A stretch of 47,717 bases of DNA. Origin: Bacteroidota bacterium (GTDB lineage: Bacteria; Bacteroidota; Ignavibacteria; UBA10030; UBA8401). Where the stretch lies: the NCBI GenBank assembly GCA_020052095.1, contig JAGVPT010000270.1:1-47717 (forward strand), read 5' to 3'. The position numbers were made by a program, and so were the translations under genes. This document shows, piece after piece, positions 19,807 through 41,560 of this stretch. Below the pieces are notes generated by a model. It was not told the DNA's origin, made no database searches, and saw only the letters and a program-made list of their open reading frames with translations. Positions within the stretch are counted from its first letter, which is position 1. Every line of letters begins with the position of its first letter.

Positions 19807-20007
19807 TGATTTCGCTGATTACTCAGATTAAGCGCAGATTGCAGATTAGCGCAGATTGCAGATTGCAGATTGCAGATTGCAGATTAAGCGCAGATTGCAG
19901 ATTAGCGCAGATTGAGAATTGAAATCTGAAGGCAACTTAAGAAGAGACACACACATAGAATGATGACATCTGCGGAATCTGCAATCTGCGTAACATCAGC
20001 GAAATCA
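19807..20007. repeat. Heptamer GCAGATT array inside a 13-bp inverted repeat
   Basis: The mraY-murD spacer holds ten copies of GCAGATT between 19834 and 19913, mostly tandem, and two inverted copies (AATCTGC) at 19976-19989. The whole is bounded by a perfect 13-bp inverted repeat, 19807-19819 with 19995-20007. It can fold into a long hairpin between two genes of the cluster. Confidence 0.85.
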
Positions 20008-24351: not shown

Positions 24352-24443
<92 letters not shown>

Positions 24444-24536: not shown

Positions 24537-25916
24537 ATGTTCAGCTCAATAAAGAAAATTCATTTTGTCGGTATCGGCGGCATTGGCATGAGCGGCATTG
24601 CGGAGATTTTGATCGATCAGGGTTTCACGGTAAGCGGATCGGACAGGGCTCTCAGCGATATCACCGAACGATTGCATTCGCTTGGAGCAGCCATCTATAA
24701 GGGACATAAGGCTGAAAACCTGGCGCCGGATGTCGATACCCTCGTCTATTCATCAGCGGTTGTGTTAGATAATCCTGAAGTGATCGAGGCTCAGCGGCGG
24801 AAGATTCCGATCGTTCGGCGTGCCGAGATGCTGGCCGAAGTGATGCGCTTGAAATACGGCATTGGCATCGCAGGAACACACGGCAAAACGACAACGACGT
24901 CAATGGTCAGCCTGGTGTTAATGGAGGGTGGATTCGACCCAACCGTGATCGTCGGCGGAAAGTTGAGCGGACTTGGGGGGACGAATGCGCGGCTCGGCAA
25001 GGGTGATTTTATTGTGGTTGAAGCGGATGAATTCGACCGATCGTTTCTTTCCATCACTCCGACCATCGCCGTGTTGACGACCCTTGAGACCGATCACCTC
25101 GATTGTTATCGCGATCTCGAAGATATCAAAGGAGCGTTCATCCAATTCGCGAACAAAGTTCCGTTCTATGGTTTTGTGGTGTTGTGTCTCGACGAGCCAG
25201 CGCTTCAGGATATCATGCCGCAGCTCATCAAGAAAAAACTGCTGACCTACGGATTGACGCCGCAAGCGGACATACAGGCCATCGATATCCGGCATAAAGA
25301 AAACACGAGCACTTTTACCGTTGCGCGTGGATTTGAGGACCTTGGACAAATAACACTTCAGATTCCCGGGAAGCACAACATTCAGAATGCACTTGCTGCG
25401 ATTGCTGTCGGTCTCCAGCTTGGCATTCCGTTCAGTAAGGTGAAGTCCGGCATTGAGAAATTTACGGGCGTCTATCGCCGATGGGAAAAGAAAGGCGAAG
25501 CCGCAGGAATCACAGTATACGACGACTATGCGCATCATCCCACTGAATGCAGAGCAACTCTTTCGGGTGTGAAGTCCGGCTGGCGCCGGCGCGTTGTGTG
25601 TGTGTTCCAACCCCACCTTTATTCGCGCACTCGGGATTTCTACGAAGAATTCGGCAAAGCATTTCTTCTTGCCGATGTTCTTGTCGTGACAGACGTCTAT
25701 CCTGCGCGTGAGGAACCGATCCAGGGCGTAACCGGCGAGCTGATCACCAACGCGGCGAAGCAGTACGGGCACAAAGATGTTCATTATGTTAGCGACAAAA
25801 AAGATATTCCGGGACACTTGAAAAAAATTACGCGCTCAAGCGACATCGTCATAACAATGGGAGCAGGAGATATTTGGAAGTTTGGAGAGGAATTCTTGAA
25901 GGCAATTAAGAATTAG
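24537..25916 (+). CDS. murC: UDP-MurNAc-L-alanine ligase MurC
   Basis: First ligase of the peptide stem, 459 residues, cytosolic. The start IHFVGIGGIGMSGIAEIL is the UDP-binding loop, the ATP loop AGTHGKTTTTSMV lies near residue 110, and the remaining Mur ligase blocks are intact: VVEADEFDRSFL, LTTLETDHLDCY, PGKHNIQNALAA, RRWEKKGE, VYDDYAHHPTE and FQPHLYSRT. Its stop codon lies inside the first unit of the following heptamer array. Two arrays flank this gene. Confidence 0.97.
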   Translation: MFSSIKKIHFVGIGGIGMSGIAEILIDQGFTVSGSDRALSDITERLHSLGAAIYKGHKAENLAPDVDTLVYSSAVVLDNPEVIEAQRRKIPIVRRAEMLAEVMRLKYGIGIAGTHGKTTTTSMVSLVLMEGGFDPTVIVGGKLSGLGGTNARLGKGDFIVVEADEFDRSFLSITPTIAVLTTLETDHLDCYRDLEDIKGAFIQFANKVPFYGFVVLCLDEPALQDIMPQLIKKKLLTYGLTPQADIQAIDIRHKENTSTFTVARGFEDLGQITLQIPGKHNIQNALAAIAVGLQLGIPFSKVKSGIEKFTGVYRRWEKKGEAAGITVYDDYAHHPTECRATLSGVKSGWRRRVVCVFQPHLYSRTRDFYEEFGKAFLLADVLVVTDVYPAREEPIQGVTGELITNAAKQYGHKDVHYVSDKKDIPGHLKKITRSSDIVITMGAGDIWKFGEEFLKAIKN

Positions 25917-25965
25917 GAATTATGAATTAGGAAGTAAGAGGTAGGGAGTAAGAAGTAAAAAAGTA
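25910..25965. repeat. Degenerate heptamer array, GAATTAG/GAAGTAA type
   Basis: Eight consecutive 7-bp units (GAATTAG, GAATTAT, GAATTAG, GAAGTAA, GAGGTAG, GGAGTAA, GAAGTAA and a last variant). The first unit contains the murC stop codon, so the array begins inside the gene. Confidence 0.75.
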
Positions 25966-25990: not shown

Positions 25991-26078
25991 TGTTGTTCAT
26001 TGTTCATTGTTCATTGTTCATTGTTGATTGTTGATTGTTCATTGTTCATTGTTCATTGTTCATTGTTGATTGCTCATT
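25991..26078. repeat. Heptamer array, TGTTCAT type
   Basis: About twelve tandem units of TGTTCAT with TGTTGAT variants, ending 6 nt before the murB start codon. The murB ribosome site would have to lie in the last units or the short stretch after them. Confidence 0.92.
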
Positions 26079-27004: not shown

Positions 27005-27795
27005 ATGAGGATGAGACAATCGAGCAGGCGCGGCATCGGGTACACGGAAGGAATGTCTACGGGATCTTCGCGCTGCTGTTTTTCTTTGCCCTTGCGGCAT
27101 GGTTCGGAACGCTCCAGTGGAAAGAGCATCTCACGGTGAGCGGCATTATCGTCGATGGCGACCGCATCCTCACAAAAGACGAGGTGGTCAAACTTGCGCG
27201 CATTTCTCTGAAAACAAAAATGTACGACATTGATCTACTGTCGGTTCAAAAAAAGATCCAGAAAAATCATTTCGTAAAAAGCGTCACTGTTATGAGAGAC
27301 GCACCATCGACCGTTAGAATTTCTGTGGAAGAGCGAACGCCAATCGCACTACTTTCATTTCCCGGCACGAGCGAGCTTTTGTACATCGATGAGGAAGGCT
27401 ACATCCTCCCGCATGTTGCAACACAGGCGATATTCGACCTTCCGATAATTAGCGGAGCAGATTCAGCAGCGGTTGTTTCAGTCGGTCTGAGAACGCCGCA
27501 CGCCGATCTGCTGGCAGCGCTCGAGGCATTAGAGTCGGCCCAAAACGTGAGCAGCGAACTTTTTCACATGATTTCCGAGGTGAAAATCCGGAGCGGGCAC
27601 GACATGGTCCTTTACTCAGCGGAAGGCGGCGTCCCAATCATTTTCGGTCGAGGCGATGCTGCGAAGAAAATGGTGAAGTTGGATGCCTTCTGGAAAAAAT
27701 TCATCACGGAACAAGGGCCACAGGACATTCGATATATCGACCTGCGGTTTGAAGATCAGGTCATTGTTTCATCCATCACAAAGAAGTCGTCATAA
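27001..27795 (+). CDS. ftsQ: Cell division protein FtsQ/DivIB
   Basis: 264-residue bitopic membrane protein. A short cytoplasmic N-terminus is followed by one helix (YGIFALLFFFALAAWFG, about 20-36) and a POTRA-like domain (LTVSGIIVDGDRILTKDEVV) and then the FtsQ beta domain (DAPSTVRISVEERTPIALL, YIDEEGYILP). It recruits the FtsLB pair and downstream divisome proteins. The family is weakly conserved, but topology, POTRA pattern and position between murB and ftsA agree. It starts within the murB stop. Confidence 0.93.
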   Translation: MNEDETIEQARHRVHGRNVYGIFALLFFFALAAWFGTLQWKEHLTVSGIIVDGDRILTKDEVVKLARISLKTKMYDIDLLSVQKKIQKNHFVKSVTVMRDAPSTVRISVEERTPIALLSFPGTSELLYIDEEGYILPHVATQAIFDLPIISGADSAAVVSVGLRTPHADLLAALEALESAQNVSSELFHMISEVKIRSGHDMVLYSAEGGVPIIFGRGDAAKKMVKLDAFWKKFITEQGPQDIRYIDLRFEDQVIVSSITKKSS

Positions 27796-27829
27796 TTCGA
27801 AGGACTCCTTCGCAGAAAAAGGAAGCAGT

Positions 27830-29068
27830 ATGGAAAATATTTACGTTGGGCTGGATATCGGCACAACAAAGGTATGTGCGATTGTCGCATCGTTGAGTGA
27901 GAACAACGAGATCAATATTCTTGGCATCGGCAAAAGCAAGTCTGAGGGTTTAACGCGCGGCGTTATCACACACATTGAAAAGACCATCGCATCTATCCAG
28001 GCGGCAGTGAGAGAAGCCGAGCTGCAATCGGGTGCAAAGATTCAAACGGTCGTAGCCGGAATCGCCGGCGATCATGTGCAGAGTTTCCAAAGCCGCGGGG
28101 TTATCGCCATCAGCGGAGCGGAACAAGAAATAACCCAGGCGGACGTCGACCGGTTGATAGAGGATACAAAAAAAGTCGCGCTGCCGTCCGACAGAAAAAT
28201 CATCCACGTTATTCCGCAGGAATTTATCGTCGATGGCCAGGACGGCGTGTACGACCCGGTCGGCATGTCCGGCGTGAGAATGGAAGCGAACGTTCACATC
28301 ATCACCGGGCTCGTCTCCGCGGCTCAAAATATTTTGAAATGCGTTCAGCGTGCCGGAGTCTCCGTCAGCGACATCGTGCTTGAACCGATCGCATCGAGCG
28401 ATGCGGTTCTCGATAAGGAAGAAAAGGAAGTCGGCGTAGCGCTGGTCGACATCGGCGGCGGGACGACCGACCTTGCCGTGTTTGAAGACCGCACCATTCG
28501 GCACACCGCAGTTATCGGCATTGCAGGGAAAAAAGTGACAGACGATATTCGCCGCGGACTCGGAATTCTCTCCGACCAGGCGGAGCAGTTGAAGATCACC
28601 CATGGACATGCGCATCTCTCGTCCATTATGGACAATCAACCGATCACTGTTCCCGGCATCGGCGGACGACCTCCACTGGATATTGACCAGCGCCTTTTAT
28701 GCCAAATCATCCAGCCGCGCATGGAGGAAATTTTGGAAATAGCAGCAATGGAGATTAAGCGTTCCGGTTATCAAAAACATTTGTCAGCGGGTGTAGTGCT
28801 GACCGGCGGCGGGTCGCTCATTAAAGGCACGGCCGACCTTGCGCGCGAAGTTCTCGGAATGCCCGTGAAGATCGGGATACCTCAGGGTTTTCGCGGCGGA
28901 CTTGTGCGCGAGATTGAAAATCCGATCTACGCCACCGGCGTGGGACTCGTCCATCACGCAATCAAACATCGTCAGCGTCCGAACATCGAGAACATCACCA
29001 GAACGAAGATGGATGGAAAATTTCCGACGATTTTGAAAAGGATGAAGGGGTGGTTTGACGAATTGTGA
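27830..29068 (+). CDS. ftsA: Cell division protein FtsA
   Basis: Actin-like ATPase that anchors FtsZ to the membrane; 412 residues from the ATG at 27830, where MENIYVGLDIGTTKVCA is the canonical start. The open frame extends upstream only within ftsQ. Phosphate loops (GLDIGTTKV, LVDIGGGTTDLAVF), the 1C subdomain region (HVIPQEFIVDGQDGV) and TGGGSLIKG are intact. The C-terminus ends in a basic amphipathic helix (ILKRMKGWFDEL), the usual membrane anchor. A ribosome site GGAAG lies 5 nt upstream. Downstream, the usual ftsZ is displaced by about 800 bp of heptamer repeats and an inserted gene. Confidence 0.96.
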   Translation: MENIYVGLDIGTTKVCAIVASLSENNEINILGIGKSKSEGLTRGVITHIEKTIASIQAAVREAELQSGAKIQTVVAGIAGDHVQSFQSRGVIAISGAEQEITQADVDRLIEDTKKVALPSDRKIIHVIPQEFIVDGQDGVYDPVGMSGVRMEANVHIITGLVSAAQNILKCVQRAGVSVSDIVLEPIASSDAVLDKEEKEVGVALVDIGGGTTDLAVFEDRTIRHTAVIGIAGKKVTDDIRRGLGILSDQAEQLKITHGHAHLSSIMDNQPITVPGIGGRPPLDIDQRLLCQIIQPRMEEILEIAAMEIKRSGYQKHLSAGVVLTGGGSLIKGTADLAREVLGMPVKIGIPQGFRGGLVREIENPIYATGVGLVHHAIKHRQRPNIENITRTKMDGKFPTILKRMKGWFDEL

Positions 29069-29073
29069 GTGGG

Positions 29074-29179
29074 GTAATCAGTAGGCAGTAGCCAGTAGCC
29101 AGTAATCAGTAATCAGTAATCAGTAATCAGTAATCAGTAGTCAGTAGTCAGTAGTCAGTAATCGGTAGTTAGTAGTTAG
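29074..29179. repeat. Left heptamer array (AGTAATC type) of the IVP cassette
   Basis: About 15 tandem 7-bp units: AGTAGCC, then AGTAATC several times, then AGTAGTC, and GGTAGTT variants at the end. It begins 5 nt after the ftsA stop and ends 38 nt before the next gene. The same heptamers occur in reverse complement at 29610-29820. Confidence 0.93.
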
Positions 29180-29216
29180 AATACAGGTAGCATTACATTA
29201 AAAAGGGGAGGTACGT

Positions 29217-29570
29217 ATGCATCGATTTAGGGAGTTGAAAGTGTATCAAAAGGCGATATCGTTGACCAAAGAGATTCGACAGCTGACAAAAAAATTTCCA
29301 AAGGAAGAGATGTTTTCGCTTATGTCGCAAATGAATCGAGCGGGTGACTCAATCGCATTAAACATCGCAGAGGGTGCCGGAAATTACTCACGAAAAGAAT
29401 TTTCAAAATTTCTTGGATACTCAATTCGTTCGGGGTATGAATGTATTTGTTGTTTAGATATTGCACTGGAGAACACGTTCATTGTCCCGCCCGAGAGAGA
29501 TCGGCTTTTTAAAAAGATCGACGAAGTAATTGCAATGCTCGTCGGTCTGCGCAAAAGTTTGACTAAATAA
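29217..29570 (+). CDS. Four-helix-bundle protein (S23/IVP family)
   Basis: 117-residue all-helical protein. The start HRFRELKVYQKAISLTKEI, the central RAGDSIALNIAEGAGNYSRKEF and the closing ARG/KSL helix are the signature of the family named after the protein encoded in 23S rRNA intervening sequences, also related to Avd of diversity-generating retroelements. The molecular function is unknown; homologues form pentamers and bind nucleic acid in the Avd case. A strong ribosome site AGGGGAGG lies about 6 nt before the ATG. The gene interrupts the ftsA-ftsZ order and is bracketed by inverted heptamer arrays, so it was probably inserted as a unit. No reverse transcriptase or template repeat is near. 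Confidence 0.92.
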   Translation: MHRFRELKVYQKAISLTKEIRQLTKKFPKEEMFSLMSQMNRAGDSIALNIAEGAGNYSRKEFSKFLGYSIRSGYECICCLDIALENTFIVPPERDRLFKKIDEVIAMLVGLRKSLTK

Positions 29571-29609
29571 TTCTCAACCACTCGGTAGCACGAGCTTTCA
29601 CTGATCATT

Positions 29610-29820
29610 GGCTACCGGCTACCGGCTACCGGCTACCGGCTACCGGCTACTGGCTACTGGCTGCTGGCTGCTGACTACTGACTACTGACTACTGACTACT
29701 GACTACTGACTACTGACTACTGACTACTGACTACTGACTACTGATTACTGATTACTGATTACTGACTACTGACTACTGACTACTGACTACTGACTACTGT
29801 CTACTTTCAACTGATTACTG
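29610..29820. repeat. Right heptamer array (GACTACT type), inverted relative to the left array
   Basis: About 30 tandem 7-bp units: GGCTACC five or six times, GGCTACT and GGCTGCT twice each, then GACTACT many times with an inner block of GATTACT. Read in reverse complement these are AGTAGTC, AGTAATC and AGTAGCC, the same set as at 29074-29179. The two arrays could pair over roughly 100 bp. Confidence 0.94.
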
Positions 29821-29876
29821 AAACCAAAATTATTAACAACAAAAACACATCACTCACTAAACACAAAGGAGTCACA

Positions 29877-31052
29877 ATGATAGAACTCGACAACCCCAGA
29901 GACGGCGGCGCGAAGATCCGTGTAGTGGGAGTCGGTGGCGGCGGAAGCAACGCAATCGTCAGCATGATCGACAAGGGACTGAGCGGCGTTGATTTCATCT
30001 GCGTTAACACCGATACTCAGGCTCTTGAGCGCACGAGTGCTCCTAACAAAATTCAGATCGGCAAAAACCTCACACGAGGGCTTGGCGCAGGATCCGATCC
30101 CAACATCGGTCACCGGGCTGCGGAAGAAGACCGCGAGGAAATTGCCCGCGCCCTTGCCGGCAGCGACATGGTTTTTATAACGGCCGGTATGGGAGGCGGT
30201 ACCGGGACCGGAGGCGGCCCGGTTGTCGCGAACATTGCAAAAAGTCTTGGCGCATTGGTAGTCGGGATTGTGACAAAGCCGTTCAACTGTGAAGGGAAGA
30301 AACGACTGATGCAGGCAGAATACGGTATCGAGGAACTAAAGAAGCAAGTCGACACCTTGATAGTCATTCCGAATCAGAAGCTTCTCTCGATCGTCGAGAA
30401 AACGACCCCGCTCGAGGAAGCATTTGAGATCTGTAATCGCGTTCTCCACAATGCAACACGCGGAATTTCGGAATTGATCACCGTTCCGGGCCTCATCAAT
30501 CTTGATTTCGCCGATGTTCGAACCATTATGCGCGAGATGGGCGATGCGTTGATGGGCTCAGGAGTCGCGACCGGAGAGAACCGCGCAGTTGAAGCTGCAA
30601 ACGCTGCGATATCCAGTCCATTGCTTGAAGGCGTGTCGATTTCCGGGGCGCAGGGCGTTCTTGTCAACATCACCGGCGGAAAGAACCTGTCGCTGGTTGA
30701 AGTGGATGAGGCGACGAGCATTATTCATGAAGCGGCCGGAGACGATGCCAACGTTATTCTCGGCGCTGTGATCGACGAGTCGATGACGGAAGAATTAATG
30801 GTGACCGTGATAGCGACCGGCTTTAACAGAAAGCCTTCGACCACAGCACGGCCGGCGAAAAATGTTCGCGTGCTCGATCATATTCCGACCGGAGTACAAG
30901 ACTTAAAGAAGATGGATGAGCCGGCATATATTCGCAAAGGGTACCTAATTCCGACGCCAACAATGCAAGCAAACGAATCGCGTTTCTCGCAATCGACATC
31001 AGATCGGGGCGAAAGCGATAAGCCAGCGTTCTTGCGGAAGATAATGGACTGA
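29877..31052 (+). CDS. ftsZ: Cell division GTPase FtsZ
   Basis: Tubulin-like GTPase forming the division ring; 391 residues. N-terminal VVGVGGGGSNAI, the T3 and T5 loops, and the synergy loop LDFADVRTIM are present. The tubulin signature at 106-115 reads GGGTGTGGGP, where most FtsZ have GGGTGTGAAP. The C-terminal linker is short (about 60 residues) and ends in the FtsA-binding peptide DKPAFLRKIMD. The ribosome site AAAGGAG lies 7 nt before the ATG, in an A/C-rich leader that follows the heptamer array. It is the last gene of the cluster. Confidence 0.97.
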   Translation: MIELDNPRDGGAKIRVVGVGGGGSNAIVSMIDKGLSGVDFICVNTDTQALERTSAPNKIQIGKNLTRGLGAGSDPNIGHRAAEEDREEIARALAGSDMVFITAGMGGGTGTGGGPVVANIAKSLGALVVGIVTKPFNCEGKKRLMQAEYGIEELKKQVDTLIVIPNQKLLSIVEKTTPLEEAFEICNRVLHNATRGISELITVPGLINLDFADVRTIMREMGDALMGSGVATGENRAVEAANAAISSPLLEGVSISGAQGVLVNITGGKNLSLVEVDEATSIIHEAAGDDANVILGAVIDESMTEELMVTVIATGFNRKPSTTARPAKNVRVLDHIPTGVQDLKKMDEPAYIRKGYLIPTPTMQANESRFSQSTSDRGESDKPAFLRKIMD

Positions 31053-37852: not shown

Positions 37853-37930
37853 AAGAAGGAGATAAGAAGTAAGACGTGAGAAGTAAGACGTAAGAGGTAA
37901 GACATGTGGGGTAAGATGTAGGGGATAAGT
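37853..37930. repeat. Degenerate heptamer array, GTAAGAC type
   Basis: About ten 7-bp units around GTAAGAC, GTGAGAA, GTAAGAG, GTAAGAT and GTAGGGG, filling the spacer between the DUF4159 and DUF4175 genes. Confidence 0.8.
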
Positions 37931-41449: not shown

Positions 41450-41510
41450 GAGCAATGAACAATGAGCAATGATTAATGATTAATGATCAATGATTAATGA
41501 GCAATGACTT
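41450..41510. repeat. Heptamer array, GANNAAT type
   Basis: Nine 7-bp units (GAGCAAT, GAACAAT, GAGCAAT, GATTAAT twice, GATCAAT, GATTAAT, GAGCAAT, GACTTAT). GA and AAT are fixed while positions 3-4 vary. It begins 7 nt after the DUF4175 stop. Confidence 0.85.
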
Positions 41511-41530
41511 ATCAGAAGCCTTGAGTTGAA

Positions 41531-41560
41531 CCTCATCCCTCATCCTTCATCCCTCATCCT
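41531..41560. repeat. Short heptamer array, CCTCATC type
   Basis: Four tandem 7-bp units (CCTCATC three times, CTTCATC once) 20 nt after the previous array but with an unrelated heptamer. Confidence 0.8.

Follow-up and report, generated by a model that had tools for sequence, protein, structure and literature searches.

The window analysed here, a stretch of 47,717 nucleotides from a Bacteroidota bacterium, carries an IVP gene between ftsA and ftsZ. The upstream host gene, ftsA (27830-29068, + strand, within an ORF at 27683-29068), was recognised by PF14450 (147 bits) and PF02491 (111 bits), and its presumed start codon was set at MENIYVGLDIG. Six nucleotides past its stop begins the left arm (29074-29179, + strand), which consists of about 15 heptamers of the AGTARYC family and was delimited by a lag-7 run and by TRF (14.7 heptamers at 29074-29176, 88% matches). 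A leader containing the purine-rich AAAAAGGGGAGG (29180-29216, + strand) precedes the IVP gene itself (29217-29570, + strand), whose 354 nt encode a four-helix-bundle protein of 117 aa with a net charge of +7. This protein belongs to the PF05635/TIGR02436 family, with profile matches above the curated cut-off (109.5 bits for PF05635, cut-off 33.8; 104 bits for TIGR02436), and the solved IVPs 2GSC and 2RLD are phmmer matches of it. The right arm (29610-29821, - strand), defined by TRF and by inverted alignment to the left arm, contains about 30 heptamers of the reverse-complement family, in arrays of 7.6 units (29610-29662) and 25 units (29647-29821). Next come the ftsZ leader (29822-29876, + strand), which contains AAAGGAG and whose 3' part is similar to the spacers of the cassette-free relatives with which it was compared (G005, G010 and G001), and the downstream host gene, ftsZ (29877-31052, + strand; PF00091, 169 bits; PF12327, 114 bits).

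Both PF05635 and TRF agree with the preliminary description, in which the gene between ftsA and ftsZ is an IVP gene preceded by about 15 heptamers and followed by about 30 units in inverted orientation. Its proposal that a stem of about 100 bp could form also holds: the inverted arms align over 106 columns, of which 96 are Watson-Crick, 3 GU, 6 AC and 1 other. The inverted score of this pair of flanks is 76, against 13 for the 99th percentile of mismatched IVP flank pairs, and the pairing of the two arrays is far beyond chance. When four consecutive units of this family were searched for in the 3.9-Mb genome, 23 of 23 hits fell inside the two ftsA-ftsZ arrays. The insert is seated between ftsA and ftsZ and not inside an rRNA gene, and Rfam gave no match at 28900-30000. 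We suggest that it may be one copy of an IVP cassette of 0.6-0.8 kb, in which one conserved four-helix-bundle gene stands between inverted arrays of a locus-private 7-9-nt unit.

Other heptamer arrays are present in the window. The junction of mraY and murD has, at 19824-19990, a GCAGATT array and a short inverted partner that enclose no gene and may be a relic cassette. Lone or unmatched arrays without an IVP occupy co-directional gene junctions at 24355-24443, 25904-25961, 25993-26078, 37863-37902 and 41450-41559.

Inverted arrays around IVP genes

The genome of the window contains 13 IVP matches and, in the flanks read, nearly every one has its own inverted array pair with a different unit (TAGGCAA, GTCCRAG, the 8-mer ATTACAAG, AAAGTTGA, GGTATTTG and others). 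Complementarity between left and right flanks was scored at 107 IVP loci of six families of the order. Own pairs reached a median of 12 versus 8 for mismatched pairs, and 39 of the 107 loci exceeded the 99th percentile of mismatched pairs; both controls, direct-repeat scores and 235 neighbouring genes, stayed at a median of 8. A second set of 71 loci was taken from Bacteroidota, Cloacimonadota, Geobacteraceae, CPR bacteria, Verrucomicrobia, Brocadiaceae and others, and its 52 distant loci gave an own-pair median of 13.5 (p=2e-18). The arrays repeat every 7 nt, in some cases every 8 or 9, and the period is the same on the left and on the right at all 17 loci where both were measurable; the unit varies between loci and agrees within one locus. 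IVP loci with an array on at least one side make up 74%; in background windows the frequency of arrays is 1.3%. IVP-free relatives had 0 arrays in 164 kb and IVP-rich relatives 3 arrays in 192 kb (stretches chosen without regard to IVP), lone arrays being more frequent in the genome of the window than in those sampled relatives. The left arm is poor in C (A.35, G.29, T.26, C.10) and the right arm is its mirror, so the ends of the cassette are directional. The IVP gene in its inverted-array frame is a real recurrent unit. The search of related genomes proposed in the preliminary description thus did recover array-flanked IVP genes, and the arrays, being linked to IVP and fixed in orientation, are not the random-orientation simple repeats that it had considered.

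Most copies are sense-oriented between co-directional genes: by a crude ORF call, the IVP gene runs in the same direction as both neighbours at 86 of 107 loci, with median spacings of 74 nt past the upstream stop and 55 nt ahead of the next start. Several of the discordant loci inspected are co-directional by eye (such as lysA-asd, pgk-tpiA and ftsA-ftsZ, gene names being read from the sequences), and a few of these loci are ambiguous. A motif scan of the flavobacterial loci for gmk/nadD neighbours found none. A G-run ribosome site was considered as a mark of the family and rejected, as it is present at only 18% of loci. At least six G stand directly before the IVP start at 14% of loci, for example L008, L010, L059, L060, L092 and L104.

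The gene is widespread, since one IVP query (E<=1e-15) has matches in 177 of 395 genomes sampled from the phylum. On plasmid pANA02 of Anabaena sp. 90 (L324), a type I-D CRISPR locus has a four-helix-bundle gene (1795-2163) with cas6 on one side and cas4 on the other. Orthologues of the IVP have dN/dS values of 0.02-0.09 and the protein is under strong purifying selection. It is therefore not a decaying passenger, unlike the Coxiella IVS gene, which was reported as one (PMC4990558).

Site history and movement of the cassette

Among about 50 relatives, the order ftsA-IVP-ftsZ was found in G000, G002, G017, G018, G020 and G021 and, outside their family, in G040; arm units differ among these genomes, and the arms of G040 are poorly matched (score 7). 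The same order is present in 9 of the 19 nearest named relatives, which may overlap with assemblies already counted, and the remaining named relatives have their IVP mostly before tpiA. Most other relatives have a plain ftsA-ftsZ spacer of 40-110 nt. In G001, of the same genus, the IVP is missing and the 164 nt between the two genes include a short hairpin of inverted heptamers, apparently the relic of a lost cassette. A hairpin of ATCCGTCC-type repeats, with the IVP absent, was also observed in the ftsA-ftsZ spacer of G041 (L155). The idea that lone arrays are in general old IVP sites is not supported, as the lone-array junctions that were sampled fell elsewhere than the IVP sites of relatives; the ftsA-ftsZ junction of G001 does appear to be such a relic.

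Seventeen IVP sites are recurrent between genomes. With 19 changes for these 17 site labels, the IVP tree, into which few columns enter, follows the site. Because of these few columns, and because the IVP of G040 clusters with the tpiA copies, the cassette of G040 may represent a second arrival. Recurrence in many species, together with the loss of the gene in G001 with its hairpin left behind, points to an old resident and not to a fresh insertion. The preliminary description had seen an IVS-like mobile cassette inserted between two divisome genes. Its first half stands insofar as there is a recurrent unit with the ground plan of a 23S IVS (a stem-like frame with the IVP inside); a recent insertion is not supported, as the site is common to several genera of one family (f1), to one genome of another family and to further named MAGs, and the IVP tree follows the site.

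At shared sites, the arms of one copy match each other better than they match the arms of another genome's copy (p=3e-13), so the two arms change together. Paralogues within one genome (the L069 pair, the L092 pair and L084/L104) keep related arm units at new sites, which indicates that arms and gene move as one; in these paralogous copies the inverted ends are carried with the element, as in the definition of a transposon or MITE. The arms are part of the element. They go with it to the sites of paralogues, share their unit and period, change in step where copies are orthologous, and have a fixed orientation. The flanks read contained no transposase and no target-site duplication, and no excised form was seen. 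Nor did any very recent insertion turn up for which there was a matching empty site, and the mobility step therefore rests on the paralogues.

Cassettes within methyltransferase genes

DNA N6-adenine methyltransferase genes host the cassette at three loci (L052, L054 and L075), where it separates the YYTP motif from DPACGSG. Relative to the IVP, the +2 frame is open there through arms and IVP, which gives a single host ORF of 1030-1623 aa; of 153 IVP genes (median 7 stops in this frame), only 4 have a stop-free +2 frame, and these three are among them. Targeted searches raised the number of distinct nested copies to about 14 (L052, L054, L075, L291, L292, L293, L295, L332, L333, L334, L336, L337, L339 and L351), all in the +2 frame and on the same strand as the host, a number that is no share of all IVPs because the searches were seeded with nested copies. 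The +2 frame is open in these roughly 14 nested cassettes versus 1 of about 150 other IVPs. The hosts are of type IIG, DISARM DrmMI-like, BREX PglX, type III, type ISP and DUF1156 kinds. One targeted search returned as its strongest matches stop-free copies, mostly in long open frames, and as weaker ones free-standing copies with 2-8 stops. A comparison of L052 with L054 shows 6 differing positions in the IVP protein and 25 in the linker. At L351 the IVP frame is broken and the host frame is open. No match to the nested linker peptide was found in the plasmids searched.

An open host frame through arms and IVP suggests that reading of the host gene continues across the cassette, with no splicing. 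The simplest reading of these sequences is that host ribosomes would pass through the nested cassette, which argues against routine excision. The PADLOC PglX model PDLC02522 matches a type III methyltransferase (L293, 1079-3343, - strand) only at residues 476-644, which are cassette-encoded; this profile thus seems to contain cassette-derived sequence. The copies in BREX, DISARM-like and restriction methyltransferases are overlapping genes, and annotation can misread them as host protein.

Role of the arms and relation to known systems

A stem kept as RNA should allow G.U above A.C pairs. The two are nearly equal (150:141 in all stems; 100:98 in the order alone), and selection for an RNA stem was rejected on this lack of signal. 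The match mostly stayed as high when the left-arm units were shuffled; 5 of 32 loci (p<0.05) have their unit variants in mirrored order and in register, the outcome expected of pairing or of inverted copying. Computed arm duplexes are slightly more stable for the sense than for the antisense RNA (62 of 109, p=0.03), which is a weak hint of an RNA role. Taken together, the equality of G.U and A.C, the mostly unmirrored order and the slight sense bias suggest two inverted arrays of one unit, rather than a stem under base-pair selection. No YC (Rho-like) enrichment was found in right arms (0.123 observed vs 0.119 expected).

We give roughly an even chance to our best explanation, that the IVP cassette is a small DNA-level element with array ends that rides sense-oriented on host transcripts. 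The arms would act at the DNA level as the ends of the element, and would be recognised or homogenised as arrays of one unit; mobility would then be a rare copying of the gene with its arms. The cassette would persist by riding host transcripts without interrupting host expression, and not by RNA removal, and the ftsA-ftsZ copy would be an old, vertically kept resident of its lineage. Binding of the arms is the first candidate for the role of the IVP.

The alternative closest to the preliminary description is IVS-like RNA processing, in which base pairing between the arms of the ftsA-ftsZ transcript would give RNase III a stem to cut, so that the IVP segment is lost or detached and the ratio of host gene expression altered. 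The sense orientation in operons, the strong stem that is possible at ftsA-ftsZ (a computed arm duplex of -166 kcal/mol) and the slight advantage of sense duplexes would all suit it, as would the RNase III cleavage of the Coxiella 23S IVS with an S23p ORF (PMC4990558). RNase III-type excision is nevertheless hard to reconcile with stems that have no G.U preference, with a unit order that is mostly unmirrored and with nested host frames that stay open through stem and IVP, even at L351 where the IVP itself is broken; we consider it unlikely. Equally doubtful is a locus-specific regulator, each IVP binding its own heptamer (as DNA or RNA) in both arms and regulating the operon, so that the arms would match as the sites of one protein. 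Arms that share a unit rather than a strict register, equal G.U and A.C, IVP subfamilies that follow sites, purifying selection on the IVP and cassettes retained at the same junction across genera are all consistent with such a regulator, but units turn over while orthologous IVPs stay similar (L002 and L047 before metH, 78% identical), net charge in the family core has a median of 0 and the cassette is often missing from the same site in relatives.

Homology between PF05635 and the Avd protein of diversity-generating retroelements (PMC10053308) could suggest a retroelement accessory protein and movement by reverse transcription. RVT_1 was found in only 13 of 60 relatives and is absent from several with 10-16 IVPs (G044, G048, G026 and G024); the one RVT_1 match of G000 is on another contig. 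As the RT is missing in most IVP-rich relatives, RT-driven mobility was rejected and an Avd-like role has very little probability. Finally, lone arrays do exist in the window and in its genome, as they would if ordinary intergenic slippage repeats merely happened to lie beside IVP genes, but arrays are about 50 times commoner at IVP flanks than in the background and are matched and inverted only within a locus; such a coincidence was refuted by permutation tests and is scarcely credible.

The cassette resembles the 23S rRNA IVS of Coxiella and Leptospira, with or without an S23p/IVP ORF, in being a complementary-ended segment with an IVP inside at a place that the host tolerates. It differs in that it sits in a protein operon or within a methyltransferase gene, its arms are locus-private tandem arrays, its copies are many per genome and the evidence on excision is indirect and against it. 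Inverted pairs of heptamer arrays have been described in Xanthomonas as GGGAATC pairs (about 70 in Xcc; Rehm et al. 2015, PMC4692102), with one genome-wide unit and no reported link to IVP, whereas IVP cassettes have a private unit per locus and an IVP in the middle. The TAACTGA repeats of Beggiatoaceae are intergenic heptamer arrays near gene starts (PMC4679880) and, unlike the cassettes, are mostly direct repeats with one unit per genome and no enclosed gene. The protein is a four-helix bundle homologous to Avd (PMC10053308). Unlike diversity-generating retroelements, the IVP cassette has no RT, template repeat or variable repeat. RAYT/REP elements and MITEs have inverted ends, an intergenic seat and vertical persistence with rare copying, features which the cassette shares; it has no transposase domain, and its array ends vary from copy to copy. 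No description of inverted arrays around IVP genes was found in the literature searched, most subscription journals and preprints being outside that search.

The cassette, IVS-like by its ground plan, is not a member of the 23S IVS, and the chance that it forms a class of its own is fair. Somewhat short of an even chance is the broader proposal that IVP-array cassettes are a separate class of element across many phyla, with one protein gene, copy-private inverted 7-9-mer array ends kept alike by some process, and a life inside host transcription units that includes fixed-frame dual-coding insertion in phage-defence methyltransferases. The shared architecture offers a first handle on the common IVP genes, and the free sequence of the arms, combined with their obligatory left/right agreement, raises the question of what keeps them equal. 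If the cassette affects the expression of ftsA and ftsZ, it would be a natural switch in cell division.
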